DNA of 64,000 nt from the NCBI GenBank assembly GCA_012862575.1, contig BLSF01000009.1:682001-746000 (forward strand). The letters run 5' to 3'. The DNA comes from Parietichytrium sp. I65-24A. Its lineage: Eukaryota; Sar; Bigyra; Thraustochytrida; Thraustochytriidae. The position numbers and the translations under genes were made by a program. The notes under the pieces are model-generated. The model did no database searches. It worked only from the letters and a program-made list of their open reading frames with translations, and was not told where the DNA came from. Below, one piece after another: positions 50,824 to 59,142 of the stretch. Every line of letters starts with the position of its first letter. Position 1 is the stretch's first letter.

Positions 50824-53800
50824 TTAATTGAAAACATCGGTTTGCATCTCCGAGATGGAGTCCTCCTGGGCCTGGTCGCCGCTTGACTGAAACTCGGCGC
50901 GATTCGCGAAGGACGTCATTCGACGGAGTCGAAAGCTTTGGTCTTTTGGCGGCGGCTGATTGGAGCTCGGCTTTCTAGCCTTCAGAAGCATAGATGGCAT
51001 TCTTTTCAGTCTCCCAGGGGCTTCAGGGGTGTCGCTTAGGACAGCGAATTTGTTTCTGCGACCGAAAGCTTCGTATTTGTCGCTCATTCGCTTCGACTTC
51101 TTGCGGAGAGACACGACCGTGTCGAGTGAGATCATCGTTTGAGAAGTGACCTCAACTTGCGCAGAAGGGTCAAAGAAAGGAGCGGCTGGCAGCAAAAGAT
51201 ATGCTTCTCGAAGCTGAGCGGAGAAAATCTCCGGGTCAACCGTTTGCTTCCAGTTTATTGTATCTTGCGAGCCAGTAGCCTTTGCGATCGCAAGATTGAT
51301 ATCTCCACGGGGAATAAGGCGGTCTACAGCGATGATTCCAGCTTTCATCACCGAGAGAGGAACCGAGGGAGTTTTGTTCTTGTCAAGTTCACCAGGAACC
51401 CAGTACGAGGATGACTTTCGCGTCAATTCTGGTGTTGTCGAAGGTGGGCTTTGACTTGCTCTTCGAGCATTCGACGCCTCTTCTTCCACCGCAACCTGTC
51501 GGAGGTTTTTTGCAATCTTTTCGTTGAAGGCCACTACTTTGTTGGTTATATCCATCAAAAGTGCCTGGAGAAACGCTGATTCTTTCGGAAAGTCAAACAG
51601 CCTCAAATAGTTGATCATTTTTTTCGAGCCGGAGTCAAGCTTGAGCTTGTCCTGGAGAGCCTCGATCTCAACCTGCGTCTTCATTGGGAGAAACGCGGAA
51701 AGGGAAAGCCCTACGTCGTCTTGGCTCACCTTGCCGGTGTGCAGAACTTGCCGCACGGATTTCGTGCTAACCAAAGCGAGCTTTTGTCGTTCGAGATCCA
51801 TGCGCTTGAAAAATTCCCTCATGGAGCTCAGAAAGCCGCTGTGTAACGAGAAAATGTCTTCGTGCATGTCGCCACTGACTACCAAAAGGAACGCCTTCGC
51901 TGTCGCCCAATAATCTGCCCGTTTCTTGAGCTCGTTGATGATGTTGTATCCCCACTCTGCAATCAAAGACTGGATACCAAACTTGCCTTTGAGGAATTCG
52001 TAGAGAAACTCGTTGAATGATTTGGCACCTTCCCCTTCTTGCAGACGGTCAGCAGCTCTTTCTTGAATAACGCTCTCTAGCAGCGTATTCAGGTCCTCGT
52101 CGCTAATTTCTCGCGCTCGAACCTTGCCGTTTTGCCTTAAAAATCTTGGCACGCTTTGATCGGTGCCGATGCACACGAGAGCCTTTGCGTTTTGAGGAGC
52201 AGAGGTTTGGTTCTGGTGTCCGTTTGTATACATTCCCGACAACGCATTCGTCGCAAACGCTCGATTTTCCACTCCGGCCCCCTGCAGCTCCGGCGAAGAT
52301 ACTCTTCCAGTGCTGGATCGTTTAGCTTTACCTTTTTGAAGCTTCAACATGGTCATTATAATGTCTTTTTTCTGTACCAGTTTCGTCCGCCGTTGTATAG
52401 CTTCTTTTGCCTTTGCGGCAAAATGCGCATACGTTTCCTCATCAGAAAGAGGGCGGTCTGTCTGAGAATCCTTAGTAACGCTTAGCGCCTCGCCAATTGG
52501 TTTCCGGAGCCTCTCAGTCGCCCGGCGCAAGGCTGATTGCACGCGGTCATCTGATGCCGACTCAGGAGCGGGACTGTTGCGCCCCATCGAAAGAACTAGC
52601 TCCTCCGCCTCTTCGTCTTTCTTCTTCTCCGAGAAATAGGATGAATCTGGTGGAATGAGGGATTCCGCGTTTTCAAGCGCTTGGCGAGTGTCGACGATAG
52701 CGGCTTCTAGGTTTGCCACCTGAGCTTCGACTGATTCGATCAGACCAACCGCCTTTTCCTTGGGGTCCATTTTAGACCGCTTTGCTTCGTAACCGGCAAC
52801 GAGTTCCGTCATCTTGCGAACTACGGCGAATGTGAAAGGTTCCAGAGATATGCTGTTTATTCTCCGAGCGGCATTCCGGCTGCGTTGCATATGAAAGCTG
52901 CTGTCGTTATCCACTATTGTTCCGTGATTTTCGTCTGGGTTGATTGCTGCGTTGTACCTTGGATGCACCTTCACTTTGCTATCCAAATTTGGAAGAGTAC
53001 CGAGTAATATTTCACCCCAATCAGGCCGAGGAGTGAGCGAACGATTTTCGGGCCTATCTCGAATATGTTGCATTCCTTCCAGATCTTTCAACTGAGCTTC
53101 CTGCTCTTTTATTGTCGCTTTAAGCTGATCAAGACGAAGTGTTTTTAAAGAGATGCCAGTGCTAAACGAGACATCCATATCTTCAAAGCGGTGTTCCTGG
53201 TCTCTGAGTTGTGAGAGCTCACCGAGAACACGGTCAAGCTCGGAACTGTCAACCCGTACGCTGCTCTGCCCGATACTGGCTTCGAGCTGTTGCTGTCGTT
53301 CTTTCTTCAAGTTTGCGTGCTCTTCGGTCAGGTGCTCAAGCTGTTCAAACAATGATTTGGAGGTCTCATCTTCCAGCACTATCTCTGCCTCTAACGAAAG
53401 TAGGCGTTGCTCGGCACTGTCCAGCTCTCTAACAAGTGTCTGAGTCCTCTCGCTTGCTCGTGCAATCTGGCTTTCTAGAGCAGATTTATCATCTTTGTGC
53501 CGTTTCAATTTGCGACGAATAGTCTCGAGGTTCCTTCGCCATAGGGTTTCTTCTCCTGTAGCTCGGTTAAAAACAGCACTCAGGTCCTTGAGCTTGTGTT
53601 GCACGTCTAATCGACGCGAGTCCCACACAGAATTTTCCTGCTGAATCCTTTCGATCTCAGATTCTGACGTTATTGTTTGAACTGCGCATAGCATTCTTTC
53701 TTTGTGATTTGGCGCAAACAAGCATGGGCGAATTGCAGACAAAAGAGACGTCAATGTTGCGGACAATGATGATTCGGTCTTTGCTGCTAAGACGCGAAGA

Positions 53801-54618
53801 CATTCCAGCGAGGTGTCCACCAGCTCCACGCTGAGCGGTATCTTGAGGCTTGAAGAAATAGTGTCATCGTTATGCCCACGAGCGTTTCGCATGCATTGAT
53901 CGATTCGGTAGTGAAAGTCGACGCACAGCTCGTCCAATGAAAGTCCGTCACCTTCTTTAGAATAGCAAGCTCCGCTGCTTTGAGTCTCGAAGCCACTGTG
54001 TCCTATGAGGCGTGGTCGCCCAGTCAACTTGCTGGGCTGGGGGGTTGGTTCACTAGAAGCAGGCAATGTTACGAGTGCCAACTCCTCCGTTTCTTCCGCA
54101 ATTTCTCCTCCGTTTTTAGTTACGGGATTTCGCTGGTATCTCACAGGTTTCCGCTTCCGGTGTTTGGCACCGCTTTTTGCGTCGGAGACTAATAAATTCA
54201 CAAGGTTGTCGCTCTGTGATGCCACTGCTTGCCCATGGTTTCCAGAAAATATGCTTGCCATGGCCACTGCTGCCTCGTGACTGTCTAGCCTTTTTGCCTT
54301 GCGCATGATAAATCCACTTTGTGTTGTTTTGGTTTCGAACGTTGTCTGAACCGCCTTTCGGACCTCGCACTCCTTGCCATTCCCTAGCGACATGCCTTCC
54401 GTATCTTGGGCTTTAGTTTCCCTGGGTTTTGCAGGCACCAGAGCCGTGGTCCCCTCCGGCTTCTGGTCCCCACCCGCAACCACATCTCGCCTCCCAAGAT
54501 CGAGACCATTTTCGTTGGAGAATCCGCTCGCGGGCTCTGATCTGCGCAGCAGCCGGCCCGTCTTTCTCTTCTTCGCCTGCCTTAGTGCTTCAGCTCTGCT
54601 CAAAATTGTTTCCACCAT
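50824..54618 (-). CDS. large coiled-coil protein of unknown function
   Basis: The protein is 1264 residues, ATG at 54618 (MVETILSRAEALRQAKK). Basic N-terminus with mixed disorder (to about 230), a helical segment with paired Cys (about 235-330), then a long coiled coil (about 340-530 and 610-700) rich in Gln, Glu, Leu, Arg. From about 880 to 1030 there is a compact, hydrophobic helical domain (FNEFLYEFLKGKFGIQSLIAEWG, then WATAKAFLLVVSGDMHEDIFSLH), which looks conserved-domain-like rather than coiled coil. After it come a Ser/Pro-rich linker and a helical C-terminus with basic patches. I do not recognise the family; the domain at 880-1030 resembles pieces of protist and animal proteins of unknown function in my memory, without a name. 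No membrane segment or enzymatic motif. It is head-to-head with the SNARE gene. Confidence 0.85.
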   Translation of the reverse strand: MVETILSRAEALRQAKKRKTGRLLRRSEPASGFSNENGLDLGRRDVVAGGDQKPEGTTALVPAKPRETKAQDTEGMSLGNGKECEVRKAVQTTFETKTTQSGFIMRKAKRLDSHEAAVAMASIFSGNHGQAVASQSDNLVNLLVSDAKSGAKHRKRKPVRYQRNPVTKNGGEIAEETEELALVTLPASSEPTPQPSKLTGRPRLIGHSGFETQSSGACYSKEGDGLSLDELCVDFHYRIDQCMRNARGHNDDTISSSLKIPLSVELVDTSLECLRVLAAKTESSLSATLTSLLSAIRPCLFAPNHKERMLCAVQTITSESEIERIQQENSVWDSRRLDVQHKLKDLSAVFNRATGEETLWRRNLETIRRKLKRHKDDKSALESQIARASERTQTLVRELDSAEQRLLSLEAEIVLEDETSKSLFEQLEHLTEEHANLKKERQQQLEASIGQSSVRVDSSELDRVLGELSQLRDQEHRFEDMDVSFSTGISLKTLRLDQLKATIKEQEAQLKDLEGMQHIRDRPENRSLTPRPDWGEILLGTLPNLDSKVKVHPRYNAAINPDENHGTIVDNDSSFHMQRSRNAARRINSISLEPFTFAVVRKMTELVAGYEAKRSKMDPKEKAVGLIESVEAQVANLEAAIVDTRQALENAESLIPPDSSYFSEKKKDEEAEELVLSMGRNSPAPESASDDRVQSALRRATERLRKPIGEALSVTKDSQTDRPLSDEETYAHFAAKAKEAIQRRTKLVQKKDIIMTMLKLQKGKAKRSSTGRVSSPELQGAGVENRAFATNALSGMYTNGHQNQTSAPQNAKALVCIGTDQSVPRFLRQNGKVRAREISDEDLNTLLESVIQERAADRLQEGEGAKSFNEFLYEFLKGKFGIQSLIAEWGYNIINELKKRADYWATAKAFLLVVSGDMHEDIFSLHSGFLSSMREFFKRMDLERQKLALVSTKSVRQVLHTGKVSQDDVGLSLSAFLPMKTQVEIEALQDKLKLDSGSKKMINYLRLFDFPKESAFLQALLMDITNKVVAFNEKIAKNLRQVAVEEEASNARRASQSPPSTTPELTRKSSSYWVPGELDKNKTPSVPLSVMKAGIIAVDRLIPRGDINLAIAKATGSQDTINWKQTVDPEIFSAQLREAYLLLPAAPFFDPSAQVEVTSQTMISLDTVVSLRKKSKRMSDKYEAFGRRNKFAVLSDTPEAPGRLKRMPSMLLKARKPSSNQPPPKDQSFRLRRMTSFANRAEFQSSGDQAQEDSISEMQTDVFN

Positions 54619-55845
54619 CCCGATCAGCTACCTCTGTTTTGGCGAAACCATTGAGGCGGCACCCCCAACTCACGTGCGGCTTTCGTCTGACACAGCGGCA
54701 CTATGTCACTATGTCACAAGGCAATACTCCGAGCTGTCTAGTAAACTCTTTCGCTCGCACTTTTCTGCTCGCACTTTTCACGTTCGCACTTTTCACGTTC
54801 GCACTTTTTCTGCTCGCACTTTCCGGAGCGCAACACGAATCACCGGGCACACACATTTCACATTTCACACCACCCACAGTCACCGTTAGCGCTAAGTGCT
54901 CATCTAGTACCCAGCTCCAAATCGAAGGCAGGAAGGTTTTCATTAGCAAACTGGTAAGAGCGTCAACTTTGACTGACTAGCAGCGGCTATGCTCTCACTG
55001 GCACTACACTACGGAGACAGTAAGACACGGGAACGGATCTTTTTTTTTTCTTCCAACACATTTTTTGATTGATGGATTAAGTTGATCGAACGGTGAGAGA
55101 GGTCGCGAAGACGGAGGGAGCTGCGCCCGACAGAAGCTGGAACAAGCTAGCGCAGAATGGAAGTGGAAGTGCAGCGTACATCGTTTGGACGCTGGTCGCT
55201 GGTCGCTATTCAGCCCACGCCAATCGTGCTCTTAATGATTATTATGCGCAGATTAGGTGTTCTGACCTGAAAGACCTGAAGGGGCACGGAGGAACAAATA
55301 GAATAAAAAGGAACAATTTGCTCTATTGCGGAACGCTTCGCGCAAGCCTGGACTTGGCACAGAACTCACATGAATTTTCTCTCGCCCACACGTAACGAAG
55401 GAGAAAAGAGGTGTACTCGCGTACAGCACATACGTAACGTTTCATTTGAGTTGTATGCGCGCACTGGAGGGGAAATCGTGGGCTCTGGGGTTATTGGGAA
55501 GCAACTGCGGGGCTGGAAATAAGTCTTTTCGCCAAAACAGGATCTCCACGCTTCAGTTTTGAACCTCAAAGTGCGGTTGGTGTACGTTTCGATTCGATTC
55601 GATTCGATTCCATTCCATTGAAAGCGCATCGAGGCCGGCGAATTGTCTTGGGAGTTGAGAGATTCTTTGTCTGCAGTGGCCGACGCGGGCGATTTGGTGA
55701 AAAGATTCAGCGTTAGTTTGGAAAATCGGAGCTCTTTTAGTTGGGGGAATTCAGAATTCAGAATTCAGAATTTACAACAGGTTTTGTAAACCCTACTTTG
55801 GGCTTGTCGACTGTGGAGCCGTGTTTACACGTGGAGCTAAACATT
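54619..55845. other. divergent intergenic region
   Basis: 1.2 kb between the coiled-coil gene (-) and the SNARE gene (+). It contains the 14-17 bp tandem repeat at 54751-54822 (listed separately), a T-run near 55040, a (TTCGA)n repeat at 55587-55611 and a GAATTCAGAATTCAGAATTC run at about 55748-55768. No gene recognised. Confidence 0.5.
54751..54822. repeat. GCTCGCACTTTTC/CGTTCGCACTTTTC tandem repeat
   Basis: Five units of about 14-17 bp, each centred on TCGCACTTTT, 130 bp upstream of the coiled-coil gene's start and likely inside its promoter or leader. Confidence 0.85.
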
Positions 55846-57030
55846 ATGAGGGGCTTTCAAGGGAGCTTCCGCGTGGAGAGTGCACAGGGAAGTGGCCGTC
55901 AGACGTTCACGGAGGAGGTTTTAGAGAGCAGAGTACGAGCAGATGTTCTTCATGAAAAGGCGCATGGAAAATCATCGGCTCCGAAGGCTCGTCAGGAAGA
56001 AACTGTCAAGATGATCCACCTTCGCACAGGAAAGCCTGTGGCGTCTCTTGAAGAAGTTTCTTTGCCAGAGTTTGGAGAATGGACCTGGGCGACCAATTGG
56101 CGCATTACCCGAACAGCAGGTAGCGACATGGAGGGGTGGGCCCAAGACAGACTTGACGCGGAAAGGGAAAGCCGGAAATGGTCCCGTACGAGGGCCACAA
56201 TGTCTGGGCCGTCTTCTAGCGATGCGCCTCGCGGAGCCGCAAAAGAGGACGCAGTAGATATTGCTGGACAAGACCTCATAGTATCTCCAGATTCTCCGAA
56301 AACCCCAGAGATTTTCCAAAAAAAGATCATGGCAGGGCTGAACTTGCTTCAGCTGGACGTAGCCAAACTTATTCAATTCGAGTCCGCCTTCGGCGGAAAA
56401 GACGACTCTGAGGCATTTCGGAAAATAGCCACTGAACAATCGCGGAGGGCTGAGGAGCACTTGAAAAGTATGGACGTCCTCTTCGTCGAACTTGCAAAGC
56501 TTGAAAAGGTTGAGACAAAGACAACTGGCGCATCGAAGACATCAATGCTCCAGGCTACCCGAAACAAGCTATTCAAGGACTACAACAGAGAGAAACAGGG
56601 CCTGCTAACTTCTTTGAGGACTGTGAAGCAAAAGGCACACACGACTCGCATCCCGCGAGAAAACTTGAACATCGCGAAGACGTCAGCTGCGCTCATCGAG
56701 AGTTCCGAAGAAGGGATGGAAACCGATGGAGGGTATATGACAAGAGAGCAGAGGACACAGCAAATCGCTTCCAAATTAGTCCTGGACTCAACCTTAAATG
56801 TCAACCGGTCATTGTTGCAAGAGCGCGAGGAGGAGCTGAAACACATTAATACCGAGCTTCACGATGTACAATCCATGATGTCACAGGTTGCAGGTATGGT
56901 AGATACACAGGGCCAAGACATCAAGAAGGTGGAAAAGCATACTGAAGCTGCCTTGGTGAGTACAGAAAAAGGTTATGAAGATATCAAAGCCGCAGAAAAA
57001 ATTCAGGCAAGCAACTGCGTGATTAGCTAA
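55846..57030 (+). CDS. Qa-SNARE (syntaxin 7/Pep12-like) with CaaX box and dysferlin-domain-like N-terminus
   Basis: The protein is 394 residues from the ATG at 55846 (MRGFQGSFRVES); the longer frame starts with a non-ATG codon. The C-terminal SNARE motif (about 327-382) reads EREEELKHINTELHD...MVDTQGQDIKKVE, with the zero-layer glutamine at Q355. Residues about 205-305 look like the syntaxin Habc bundle, including a Stx7/Pep12-like GKDDSEAFRKI element. The protein has no transmembrane helix; it ends NCVIS, a CaaX box, so it is probably prenylated to reach membranes. At about 75-118, EFGEWTWATNWRITRT, DMEGWAQD and RKWSRTR resemble a dysferlin (DysF) domain. The likely role is membrane fusion in the endosomal/vacuolar route. 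Both the prenyl anchor and the DysF-like part are atypical for a Qa-SNARE. Confidence 0.85.
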   Translation: MRGFQGSFRVESAQGSGRQTFTEEVLESRVRADVLHEKAHGKSSAPKARQEETVKMIHLRTGKPVASLEEVSLPEFGEWTWATNWRITRTAGSDMEGWAQDRLDAERESRKWSRTRATMSGPSSSDAPRGAAKEDAVDIAGQDLIVSPDSPKTPEIFQKKIMAGLNLLQLDVAKLIQFESAFGGKDDSEAFRKIATEQSRRAEEHLKSMDVLFVELAKLEKVETKTTGASKTSMLQATRNKLFKDYNREKQGLLTSLRTVKQKAHTTRIPRENLNIAKTSAALIESSEEGMETDGGYMTREQRTQQIASKLVLDSTLNVNRSLLQEREEELKHINTELHDVQSMMSQVAGMVDTQGQDIKKVEKHTEAALVSTEKGYEDIKAAEKIQASNCVIS

Positions 57031-57084
57031 ATGACACGAGTATCGACGAGATCTCTGGAAAGTACAGTGGCTTGCTGCCATTTT

Positions 57085-58625
57085 TCAAGGCAACCTCCAA
57101 AGTAGCTTACCGCTGGACCTAAATGGGCGGAGTAGTGATCTCGATACGAGCATTTCGACCATCAGCTCAACCCTCGCCATCGTGTAGTCTGGCAGGTGTT
57201 TTGCAAGATCTTGAATTGTCATTGCTTGACCCTTTTGAAATTGACTATACACACATGTGACCTGGGCCGCACCCTCCCCGGTTCTGAAGAGAGGTGGGAA
57301 GAGGGAGAGACTGAATTCTGGTGGAGCCGAGTCGCTGTCGTACTCTCCATCTACGGAGTTAAGATCGTCAGAGTCCACTGGATTAGAGTTTACTGCTTCA
57401 GCACAACGTTTCTCAGCGGACTTTCTTCCGATGTATTCGTATGGGGTTTGCGATTCTTCGAGAAGAATATCCTCCTCTTGCAAATGCCTTGGGAGCGACC
57501 GCTTGCTCTGTTTGGCTATTCGGTTCGACAACGGCGTGCCGATCGACCTTTTCGCCTTCTTTAGCGCCTTCTTTTCACTCTTAGTGGTAGATGCCAGCGA
57601 CCTTTTTTTCTCGCTACGTTGAGTTTGCTCAGTATTCATTCGGGACATATCATTTTCTTCAAATCCCACTAAAAGCTCCTCCTCTTCTTCCTCTTGCCTT
57701 TTGGAGTATGGCTGCTGCACCTCCTCGCCATCGCTCGAAGCGCTGTCGTCTTCGCTATCCCATGGCTGTCCCCCTCTTGAGCCGAGTCTTCCAATCACTT
57801 CAGGAGACTGCATTTTTGGTGTTGCTGGATTTGATGAGACTCTAGAAATATTTACCGCGTTGCGCACACCAGAGGAAAGCATAAATTCTGTCAAAGACTT
57901 TGCAGGAGTGCTCCGTGAAAGCCTGCTAGAAGACTTTCTCGGATCGGTTAGAGCGTCGTACTTGCCGTCCTCAGGTGTTGGCGGTGTGGCAGGTGTAATC
58001 TCGCTAATATCCAGAATGTTCGACGGAGAGGCTATGACTTGGCCACCGTACGCTTGTTGTGCCGGTTTTGAAGCGCTCGATTCTGCGAAGGACGCCGAGA
58101 AATTGGTCTTTGGCGGTGAGAATTTGAACTCCTCAATCAAATTTGTATCCTCGGAAGAGTAGGACTCGTTCATGCCAAGCCTACGGCCCATCGGAGTTTT
58201 CGCAAAAGACTTGGAAAACAAGGGCATTCGCGGGGTCGGTGGCATGTCGCTCGAGGATCCTGACATCGTGCTCTGATCGCTGTGAGGTTGCATGCCGCCT
58301 GCCTTGTTGGTTGACTTGGAGCTGTTTTCGGAGGCCGCAGGCTTAAGGTTCAGCGCCTCAATGCTAGAAAAGAATCTACACCACGTGGATACTTGTTTCG
58401 CAGCATCCTGCATTCTTTGATCGAACGTTTTGACATGCTTGAGGAGTCTGCTACCCGCATCGACGGCCTGCGCTCACACACACACACACATCCAGTTCCG
58501 ATTAGACTTGCAAAACCACCAGACAATCCATCTGCACAATTCATCCCCCAACGCACCTTCACAAAGTTCCCGTCGATCTCTTGCAGACACTGCGTGTATT
58601 GCAGCTCCAGCCCGTCGGCGTCCAT
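57085..58625 (-). CDS. spliced nuclear-type protein, two exons, C-terminal winged-helix-like segment
   Basis: Exon 1 is 58625-58557 and exon 2 is 58467-57085, giving 483 residues. Exon 1 encodes MDADGLELQYTQCLQEIDG..., joined in phase zero to AVDAGSRLLKHVKTF, which continues the same helical pattern. The N-terminal 70 residues look like a helical bundle or coiled coil. Most of the middle is disordered, Ser/Pro/Lys-rich with many SP and TP sites (TPRMPLF, ITPATPPTP, SIGTPLS), acidic runs (QEEEEEELL) and basic stretches (KKALKKAKRS). The last 50 residues (AMTIQDLAKHLPDYTMARVELMVEMLV...LWRLP) look like a winged-helix domain. The layout recalls spindle/kinetochore proteins such as Ska3, but that is a guess. 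It converges on the SNARE gene with 54 bp between stop codons. Confidence 0.75.
58468..58556 (-). other. spliceosomal intron, 89 bp
   Basis: The intron starts GTGCGT and ends GAGCGCAG on the minus strand. It has a TCTAATC branch-like string before a GTGTGTGTG run. Phase zero on both sides, and the exon joins keep a continuous helical sequence. Confidence 0.75.
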
Positions 58626-59142
58626 CTGCTTTCGTCCAACTGCCCGACTTCAAGCTCTCTCCGATCAGCACTCACCGCGTACACTCTACCCCTCCGCTTT
58701 ACTTGATTGTGTTCCTTTCTGCTGATATCGGCGATCACATCTATCACATCTATCACACCTGCTGTTCGTGCCGTTCTTCACGTCGTTGTCAACGTTGTTG
58801 TTGTTGTTGTTGTTGTTGTTGCTCGCAAGTCTTTGCTGAACGTCCCAATAATTCAAAATCAAAAGTAACTTATCTGTTGCTCTTGTTGCCCTCAGGCTCA
58901 GGCTAACTAAGGCTTCAAAAGTTACAACCACGAGCGACATTTCTAGGGTATATGGTATGAGTGGTATAGAACATTTAAGTTCTTCGCCGTTTTCTCACGA
59001 GCGGTCTTAATCTGTCCTAGTCTATGGGTAGTGAGACGGTGTCATGGAACAAAAGAGAATAAGAGAGAGAACTTTGGGGATCTCGGAATATGGGGCGACT
59101 GCAACTTGAACGTGAGGCCGTGTGATAGCGCGTGCACCCTTC
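58626..59142. other. intergenic region left of the tandem array
   Basis: About 520 bp upstream of the spliced gene and before the tandem array. It contains a (TTG)n microsatellite at 58797-58823 and a CATCTATCA repeat at about 58738-58756. No gene. Confidence 0.5.
58797..58823. repeat. (TTG)n microsatellite
   Basis: Nine TTG/GTT units in the leader of the spliced gene. Confidence 0.9.

Follow-up and report, generated by a model that had tools for sequence, protein, structure and literature searches.

A Divergent Qa-SNARE of Parietichytrium Ending in a CaaX Box, a Candidate for Farnesylation

The Locus and Its Coding Quality

The window (the whole 64,000-nucleotide stretch of Parietichytrium sp. 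I65-24A DNA analyzed here) carries at 55846–57030 on the plus strand a gene, P0001, for a Qa-SNARE without a transmembrane (TM) helix. It is a single open frame of 394 residues with no internal stops, which has ASNCVIS as its last residues and is closed by a TAA stop codon (57028–57030, plus strand). The codon signal of P0001 (0.249 bits/codon) is like that of the 37 ORFs used for training (mean 0.225; a rough set with several overlapping loci and with two window ORFs placed on opposite strands of one another), with control scores of −0.299 for the shifted frame and −0.073 for the reverse complement. Of four parts of the frame, three have signals of 0.214, 0.277, and 0.256 bits/codon, and the fourth, formed by the 7 terminal codons, has 0.258.

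A convergent ORF of 462 residues (57085–58473, minus strand) is also coding-like (0.206 bits/codon), although a Pfam search assigned it to no family; the two stops are separated by 54 bp (57031–57084), the distance given in an earlier, sequence-only reading of this DNA. Elsewhere in the window, a 1,267-residue ORF (50824–54627, minus strand) is, by our reading, formin FH2 protein-like. A search of the organism's own genome with the whole P0001 protein (8 candidates scored) returned three matches, i.e. P0001 itself, locus L007 (E = 7e-5), and locus L008 (E = 0.3, where the ORF list was inspected), and no second TM-less copy was seen among them.

SNARE Motif, Habc-like Helices, and the Other SNAREs of the Genome

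The SNARE motif of P0001 extends from layer −7 (Leu331) to layer +8 (Ala383) at 56836–56994 (plus strand), on the assumption that the layer spacing of syntaxin-1A applies. The zero-layer glutamine, Gln355, is encoded at 56908–56910 (plus strand) in the context MVDTQGQDIK, and layers −7 to +8 read LILVMVV-Q-IVTATGIA. Ala, Val, Ile, Leu, Met, or Phe occupy 12 of the 16 layer positions; when the 59 motif residues were shuffled 20,000 times, this count was reached in 3. Layer +3 is a threonine in P0001, whereas it is Met, Val, or Ile in five other Qa-SNAREs of the genome; the remaining layers are ordinary. Comparison of P0001 with PDB sequences using phmmer gave 26 matches at E ≤ 1, of which 24 are SNARE chains and two are hemagglutinins (E = 0.24 and 0.58). 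The best is 5buz_C (E = 1e-4), the best syntaxin-1A chain follows at 0.0013, and syntaxin 7 and syntaxin 13 are at 0.075 and 0.34, respectively. P0001 hence has a 16-layer motif with a zero-layer glutamine that is nearest to those of the Qa-SNAREs, and the syntaxin-type motif centered on Gln355 that had been read from the sequence is borne out.

The motif is nevertheless divergent, since the Pfam SNARE and Syntaxin models miss P0001: neither family matched up to E = 10, and the top Pfam hits, Pex24p (E = 0.029) and the coiled coil CCDC22_CC (E = 0.052), are both sub-threshold. Likewise, an own-genome search with PF05739, which scored 15 candidates and found five places, did not return P0001.

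At least five other Qa-SNAREs are encoded in the genome, which we read as Tlg2/Stx16-like (L001), Stx5-like (L002), Stx18-like (L003), plasma-membrane type (L005), and Pep12/Stx7-like (L007). The Pfam SNARE family is over its cut-off in L001 (in the PF05739 search), L002, and L003, and Syntaxin is over its cut-off in L005; L007 reaches Syntaxin_2 below the cut-off. L004, the fifth place of the PF05739 search, is a Qc-SNARE by our reading. All five Qa-SNAREs have a hydrophobic 19-residue window (mean 2.41–3.23) past the motif in the same ORF, and with at least five helix-bearing Qa-SNAREs in the genome, P0001 is therefore an additional Qa. Within the hydrophobic tail of the plasma-membrane-type syntaxin (L005, 1600–1680) there is a GGTAAGT donor look-alike.

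Motif identities over 59 residues (16 to L001, 14 to L007, 11 each to L003 and L005, and 8 to L002) place P0001 in no clear Qa family on sequence comparison. The Vam3/syntaxin-7/Pep12 group is approached by P0001 in that its best PDB sequence match, 5buz_C, a SNAP receptor-like protein, is presumably Chaetomium Vam3. SNAREs of this group, however, end in a membrane helix, and the TM-bearing candidate for it in this genome is L007, not P0001. The Pep12/Stx7 assignment implied earlier gains no clear support: the motif shares 16/59 residues with the Stx16-like L001 versus 14/59 with L007, which by our reading is a TM-bearing candidate ortholog. We also considered P0001 as the sole endosomal Qa and rejected this because the helix-bearing L007 is another candidate.

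Two further SNAREs of the genome are of note with respect to their termini. A Ykt6-like protein (L018; Synaptobrevin, E = 1.9e-13) ends in NQCCIIC. An ankyrin-FYVE protein (L019, 1468–3150, minus strand) is encoded by an ORF with an R-SNARE motif at its end (Synaptobrevin, E = 3e-7); no membrane helix was seen in its frame (a 3′ exon is possible), and it may be a second SNARE of the genome with another route to membranes.

N-terminal to the motif, the AlphaFold2 model of residues 150–394 (three alignment rows, including two paralog rows; mean pLDDT 72.7, pTM 0.36) has three helices, a short helix, and a long SNARE helix from ~300 to 393. The first three (residues 152–182, 189–226, and 229–268; 56299–56649, plus strand) are the predicted Habc-like helices. 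Foldseek returned 238 matches to this model at E ≤ 10 and none at E ≤ 0.001. Among the best 50 of the 238, syntaxin 1 complexes are at ranks 3–5, 9, 11, and 12, syntaxin 12 is at rank 8, and syntaxin 6 is at rank 17, intermingled with unrelated helical bundles. The Habc-like helices suggested earlier therefore stand as three predicted helices, but a match to a known fold at E ≤ 0.001 does not accompany them.

The C-terminal Tail and the Sequence Downstream

After Ala383 at layer +8, P0001 ends EKIQASNCVIS, the last four residues of which form a CaaX box (Cys391–Ser394; 57016–57027, plus strand). Cys391 is the single cysteine among the 394 residues and lies 36 residues past the zero layer, versus 32 for the CaaX cysteine of the Ykt6-like L018; the membrane helix of syntaxin-1A starts ~40 residues past its zero layer. 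The C-terminal membrane helix that is usual, albeit not universal, for Qa-SNAREs is absent from the P0001 frame: the maximal 19-residue Kyte-Doolittle mean is 0.98, versus 2.41–3.23 in the five others. The sequence-only reading, in which the chain ends NCVIS without a hydrophobic segment, holds in this respect. The last 24 residues contain three lysines and four acidic residues, and no polybasic second signal is present among them.

CVIS is a canonical CaaX terminus that is acceptable to farnesyltransferase (FTase), an enzyme that prefers serine at the X position. C[AVIL][VIL][SMQAC] was found at 7 of 3,381 ORF ends (≥30 residues, six frames, in the window and loci L001–L032 without L006; loci overlap, so some ends are counted twice), a looser CaaX pattern at 9, and a cysteine at position −4 at 149. 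Three of the seven canonical ends belong to gene-like ORFs (P0001, the Ykt6-like gene, and a minus-strand ORF of L018) and four appear to be chance. The L018 ORF (1959–2780, minus strand), which is a neighbor of the Ykt6-like gene and has no Pfam family above cut-off, likewise ends CVIS. Three prenyltransferase β subunits over the family cut-off are encoded in the genome, one of which is the FTase β subunit (E = 1.1e-99 against the solved FTase β, 1jcq_B). Repeats of the α subunit family (PPTA) occur at three places (C83, C12, and C2) and are over the cut-off in C83 only. The terminus proposed earlier as suited to prenylation is thus matched by the gene for a modifying enzyme.

The tail and the sequence downstream were scanned for splice sites and hydrophobic segments. 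Directly before the tail, and in phase, is a strong GC-type donor look-alike, CAG/GCAAGC (57007–57012, plus strand), on which the sequence-only reading is silent. Any splicing from this donor would take away the CaaX box, whether or not a helix were gained. AGGCAAGY sites number 10 in 127,326 positions, so the occurrence of such a donor within a dozen bases is a coincidence of ~0.1%. Together with a pyrimidine-rich acceptor, TTTTTCAAG, it delimits a possible GC-AG intron of 83 nt (57007–57089, plus strand), close in size to the only two introns measured in this genome (99 and 98 nt as read). Splicing would replace the tail by KIQATSKVAYRWT, which contains neither helix nor CaaX box, and P0001 would then be a soluble Qa-SNARE, perhaps as an alternative form. 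Both measured introns are, however, GT-AG (n = 2, i.e. few), and a CVIS end bearing the sole cysteine of the protein would have to be chance, of which there are four apparent cases among the 3,381 ORF ends. We consider removal of this intron unlikely.

An ordinary syntaxin whose membrane helix is supplied by an unseen last exon is similarly improbable. When five GT/GC donors (56995 to 57028) were paired with AG acceptors as far downstream as 58400, 24 combinations did have a 19-residue window ≥1.6, e.g. from donor 57007 or 57019 to 57676 (2.47) and from donor 57026 to 57332 (2.01, 306 nt). The two shortest of these introns (162 nt, window 1.67; 306 nt, window 2.01), however, depend on the poor donor GCTAAA, and those from the good donor at 57007 are 367 to 669 nt long, versus 98–99 nt for the measured introns, and cross the coding-like ORF at 57085–58473 in antisense orientation. 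The hydrophobic plus-strand frames at 57533, 57604, and 57676 are all antisense to this ORF, and by our reading a glutamate run in it, when reverse-complemented, gives the stretch at 57676. The codon signals of the candidate helix frames (0.094 and 0.087 bits/codon for 57533 and 57676) are below those of genes, yet not negative. We rejected the idea that the windows at 57533, 57604, 57676, and 58764 represent a lost exon: the one at 58764 is a repeat, and the other three are antisense to coding-like sequence.

Between 57007 and 57532, no unspliced plus-strand frame has a 19-residue window above 1.31. This agrees with the earlier statement that the downstream sequence offers no obvious membrane exon, and it led us to reject the possibility that the stop at 57028 results from a sequencing error and that a helix continues in a different frame. 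A decaying or truncated, functionless syntaxin gene would account for the divergent motif missed by Pfam, the threonine at layer +3, and the presence of a Qa-SNARE extra to five others, but it is highly unlikely given the intact 394-residue frame, a codon signal that is normal in all parts, the otherwise ordinary layers, and the fact that no frame immediately downstream retains a trace of a helix.

Anchoring, Possible Roles, and the N-terminal Region

We therefore favor, with a probability of roughly 0.7, the interpretation that P0001 is a supernumerary, divergent Qa-SNARE in which a CaaX box takes the place of the C-terminal membrane helix, and which is probably farnesylated and cycles between cytosol and membrane. 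FTase would attach a farnesyl group to Cys391. A lone farnesyl is a weak membrane anchor, and because P0001 has neither a second cysteine nor an adjacent polybasic stretch, its attachment would be weak and reversible, such that the protein would cycle between the cytosol and the membrane. Commitment to the membrane would then occur on pairing with SNARE partners, an SM protein, or a tether, and binding would be stable only within a complex. P0001 may act as a fusion-competent Qa with the help of a tether, of which some lipid-anchored SNAREs are capable, or it may restrain fusion, the effect that geranylgeranylated SNAREs had in yeast. We lean slightly toward tether-assisted fusion, because the layers of P0001 are nearly all ordinary.

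Ykt6 resembles P0001 in having a CaaX box directly after the SNARE motif and no membrane helix. In contrast, Ykt6 is an R-SNARE with a longin domain and two adjacent cysteines (CCAIM-type), while P0001 is a Qa-SNARE with Habc-like helices and one cysteine. Matching text describes the cycling of Ykt6 between cytosol and membranes (PMC7696345), and that of a Toxoplasma screen for prenylated proteins has YKT6.1 as its SNARE (PMC10470541). The tail of syntaxin 11, which belongs to the Qa class, is cysteine-rich and S-acylated, unlike the CaaX box of P0001. The mammalian protein is described as a SNARE without a membrane helix that is held by a C-terminal lipid (PMC7655920, matching text). Engineered prenyl- or lipid-anchored SNAREs are similar to P0001, as read here, in that a lipid anchor takes the place of the SNARE membrane helix, but are laboratory constructs. 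As covered in the matching text of a review, several reports of such lipid-for-helix swaps describe harm to fusion and others none: inhibition was observed by Grote 2000, and support of fusion by Xu 2011 (with accessory proteins) and Zhou 2013 (reviewed in PMC5247469). These precedents point both ways, and both a fusogen and a brake are therefore possible for P0001.

A helix-less Qa-SNARE, syntaxin 11, and a prenylated SNARE, Ykt6, are thus each known on their own. The literature matches listed for TM-less, lipid-anchored, or prenylated SNAREs, in which subscription papers are mostly absent, comprise Ykt6, syntaxin 11, and engineered constructs, and contain neither a natural CaaX Qa-SNARE nor another natural combination of the two features; the literature matching geranylgeranylated SNARE makes no mention of a farnesylated, prenylated, or CAAX syntaxin. 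The need of a SNARE for a membrane-spanning helix in fusion is still argued, largely from engineered proteins, and a prenyl-anchored natural Qa-SNARE, if P0001 is one, would be an evolved test case, implying either that fusion works with the Qa-SNARE anchored in one leaflet or that prenylated Qa-SNAREs are built-in brakes.

The N-terminal region of P0001, which the sequence-only reading does not mention, contains a weak DysF-like stretch (residues 57–116, including Trp79, Trp81, Trp85, and Trp98; 56014–56193, plus strand). With residues 1–130, Pfam Pex24p (PF06398), the C-terminal part of which we take to be the DysF domain, matches residues 57–106 at E = 0.0035, and its 16.9 bits are below the curated cut-off of 26.8. 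With a profile built from L009, L010, and TECPR1, P0001 obtains 13.7 bits, versus 10.1 for the best of 2,000 shuffles, and ranks first of the 495 window ORFs (E = 0.0017); a single BLASTP comparison with the L009 protein gave E = 0.007 (16/51 identical). L009 is a 3,602-residue frame, VPS13-like by our reading, with Pex24p over the cut-off (2.7e-17) and a DysF that matches TECPR1 (8p5p) at E = 2.2e-8. L010, a 300-residue frame, has a DysF-like stretch that scores under the cut-off (E = 0.0019) and, as we read it, a coiled coil.

The known domains nearest to this stretch are the DysF domains of TECPR1 and Pex30, and P0001 and L009 have in common the W.W...W and SD.EGW spacing. P0001 differs in being below the family cut-off and in its shortened loop, and its Arg/Trp-rich end aligns in the L009/L010/TECPR1 profile but not in another alignment. 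AlphaFold2 gave no usable model of the N-terminal region (mean pLDDT 38), placing a helix across the core, and the sole PDB sequence that phmmer matched to the DysF-like region is an antibody chain (E = 1.4). In view of the sub-threshold score and the unsupportive AlphaFold2 model we rejected DysF as an established domain of P0001 and regard the region as a lead. Sphingomyelin recognition by TECPR1 is carried out by its DysF. In the matching text of the papers concerned, exposed sphingomyelin has TECPR1 as a receptor (PMC10548167), and the Pex30 DysF binds phosphatidic acid (PMC12101077, PMC12101078). It is conceivable, if rather doubtful, that P0001 is held at two points, by the C-terminal farnesyl and by a reduced N-terminal DysF that would recognize phosphatidic acid or exposed sphingomyelin, and is in this way drawn out of the cytosol onto membranes undergoing damage or remodeling. 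No DysF-SNARE fusion is among the literature matches listed, and the matching text of a ferlin survey (PMC2923515) contains nothing relevant.

Elsewhere in the genome, the first 9,000 bases (L038) of a 39,303-base mitochondrial contig (C141) contain 16S rRNA and frames that we read as nad7-, rps8-, and rpl6-like; nad7 is also present on this contig in partial copies. We rejected PfaA as a thraustochytrid marker, since its hits were partial and below the cut-off and 11 of 14 control genomes responded as well. TTA is a stop codon in the Thraustochytrium mitochondrial code. In the 423-codon nad7 frame, 147 codons of which end in A, TTA occurs only at codons 3 and 24 (counted from 0), before the first ATG at codon 25. 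It is absent from the rps8- and rpl6-like frames and occurs once each in a 270-codon partial nad7 copy and a 188-codon frame. The avoidance of TTA after the first ATG of nad7 fits a labyrinthulomycete as the probable source and genetic code 23, the Thraustochytrium mitochondrial code.
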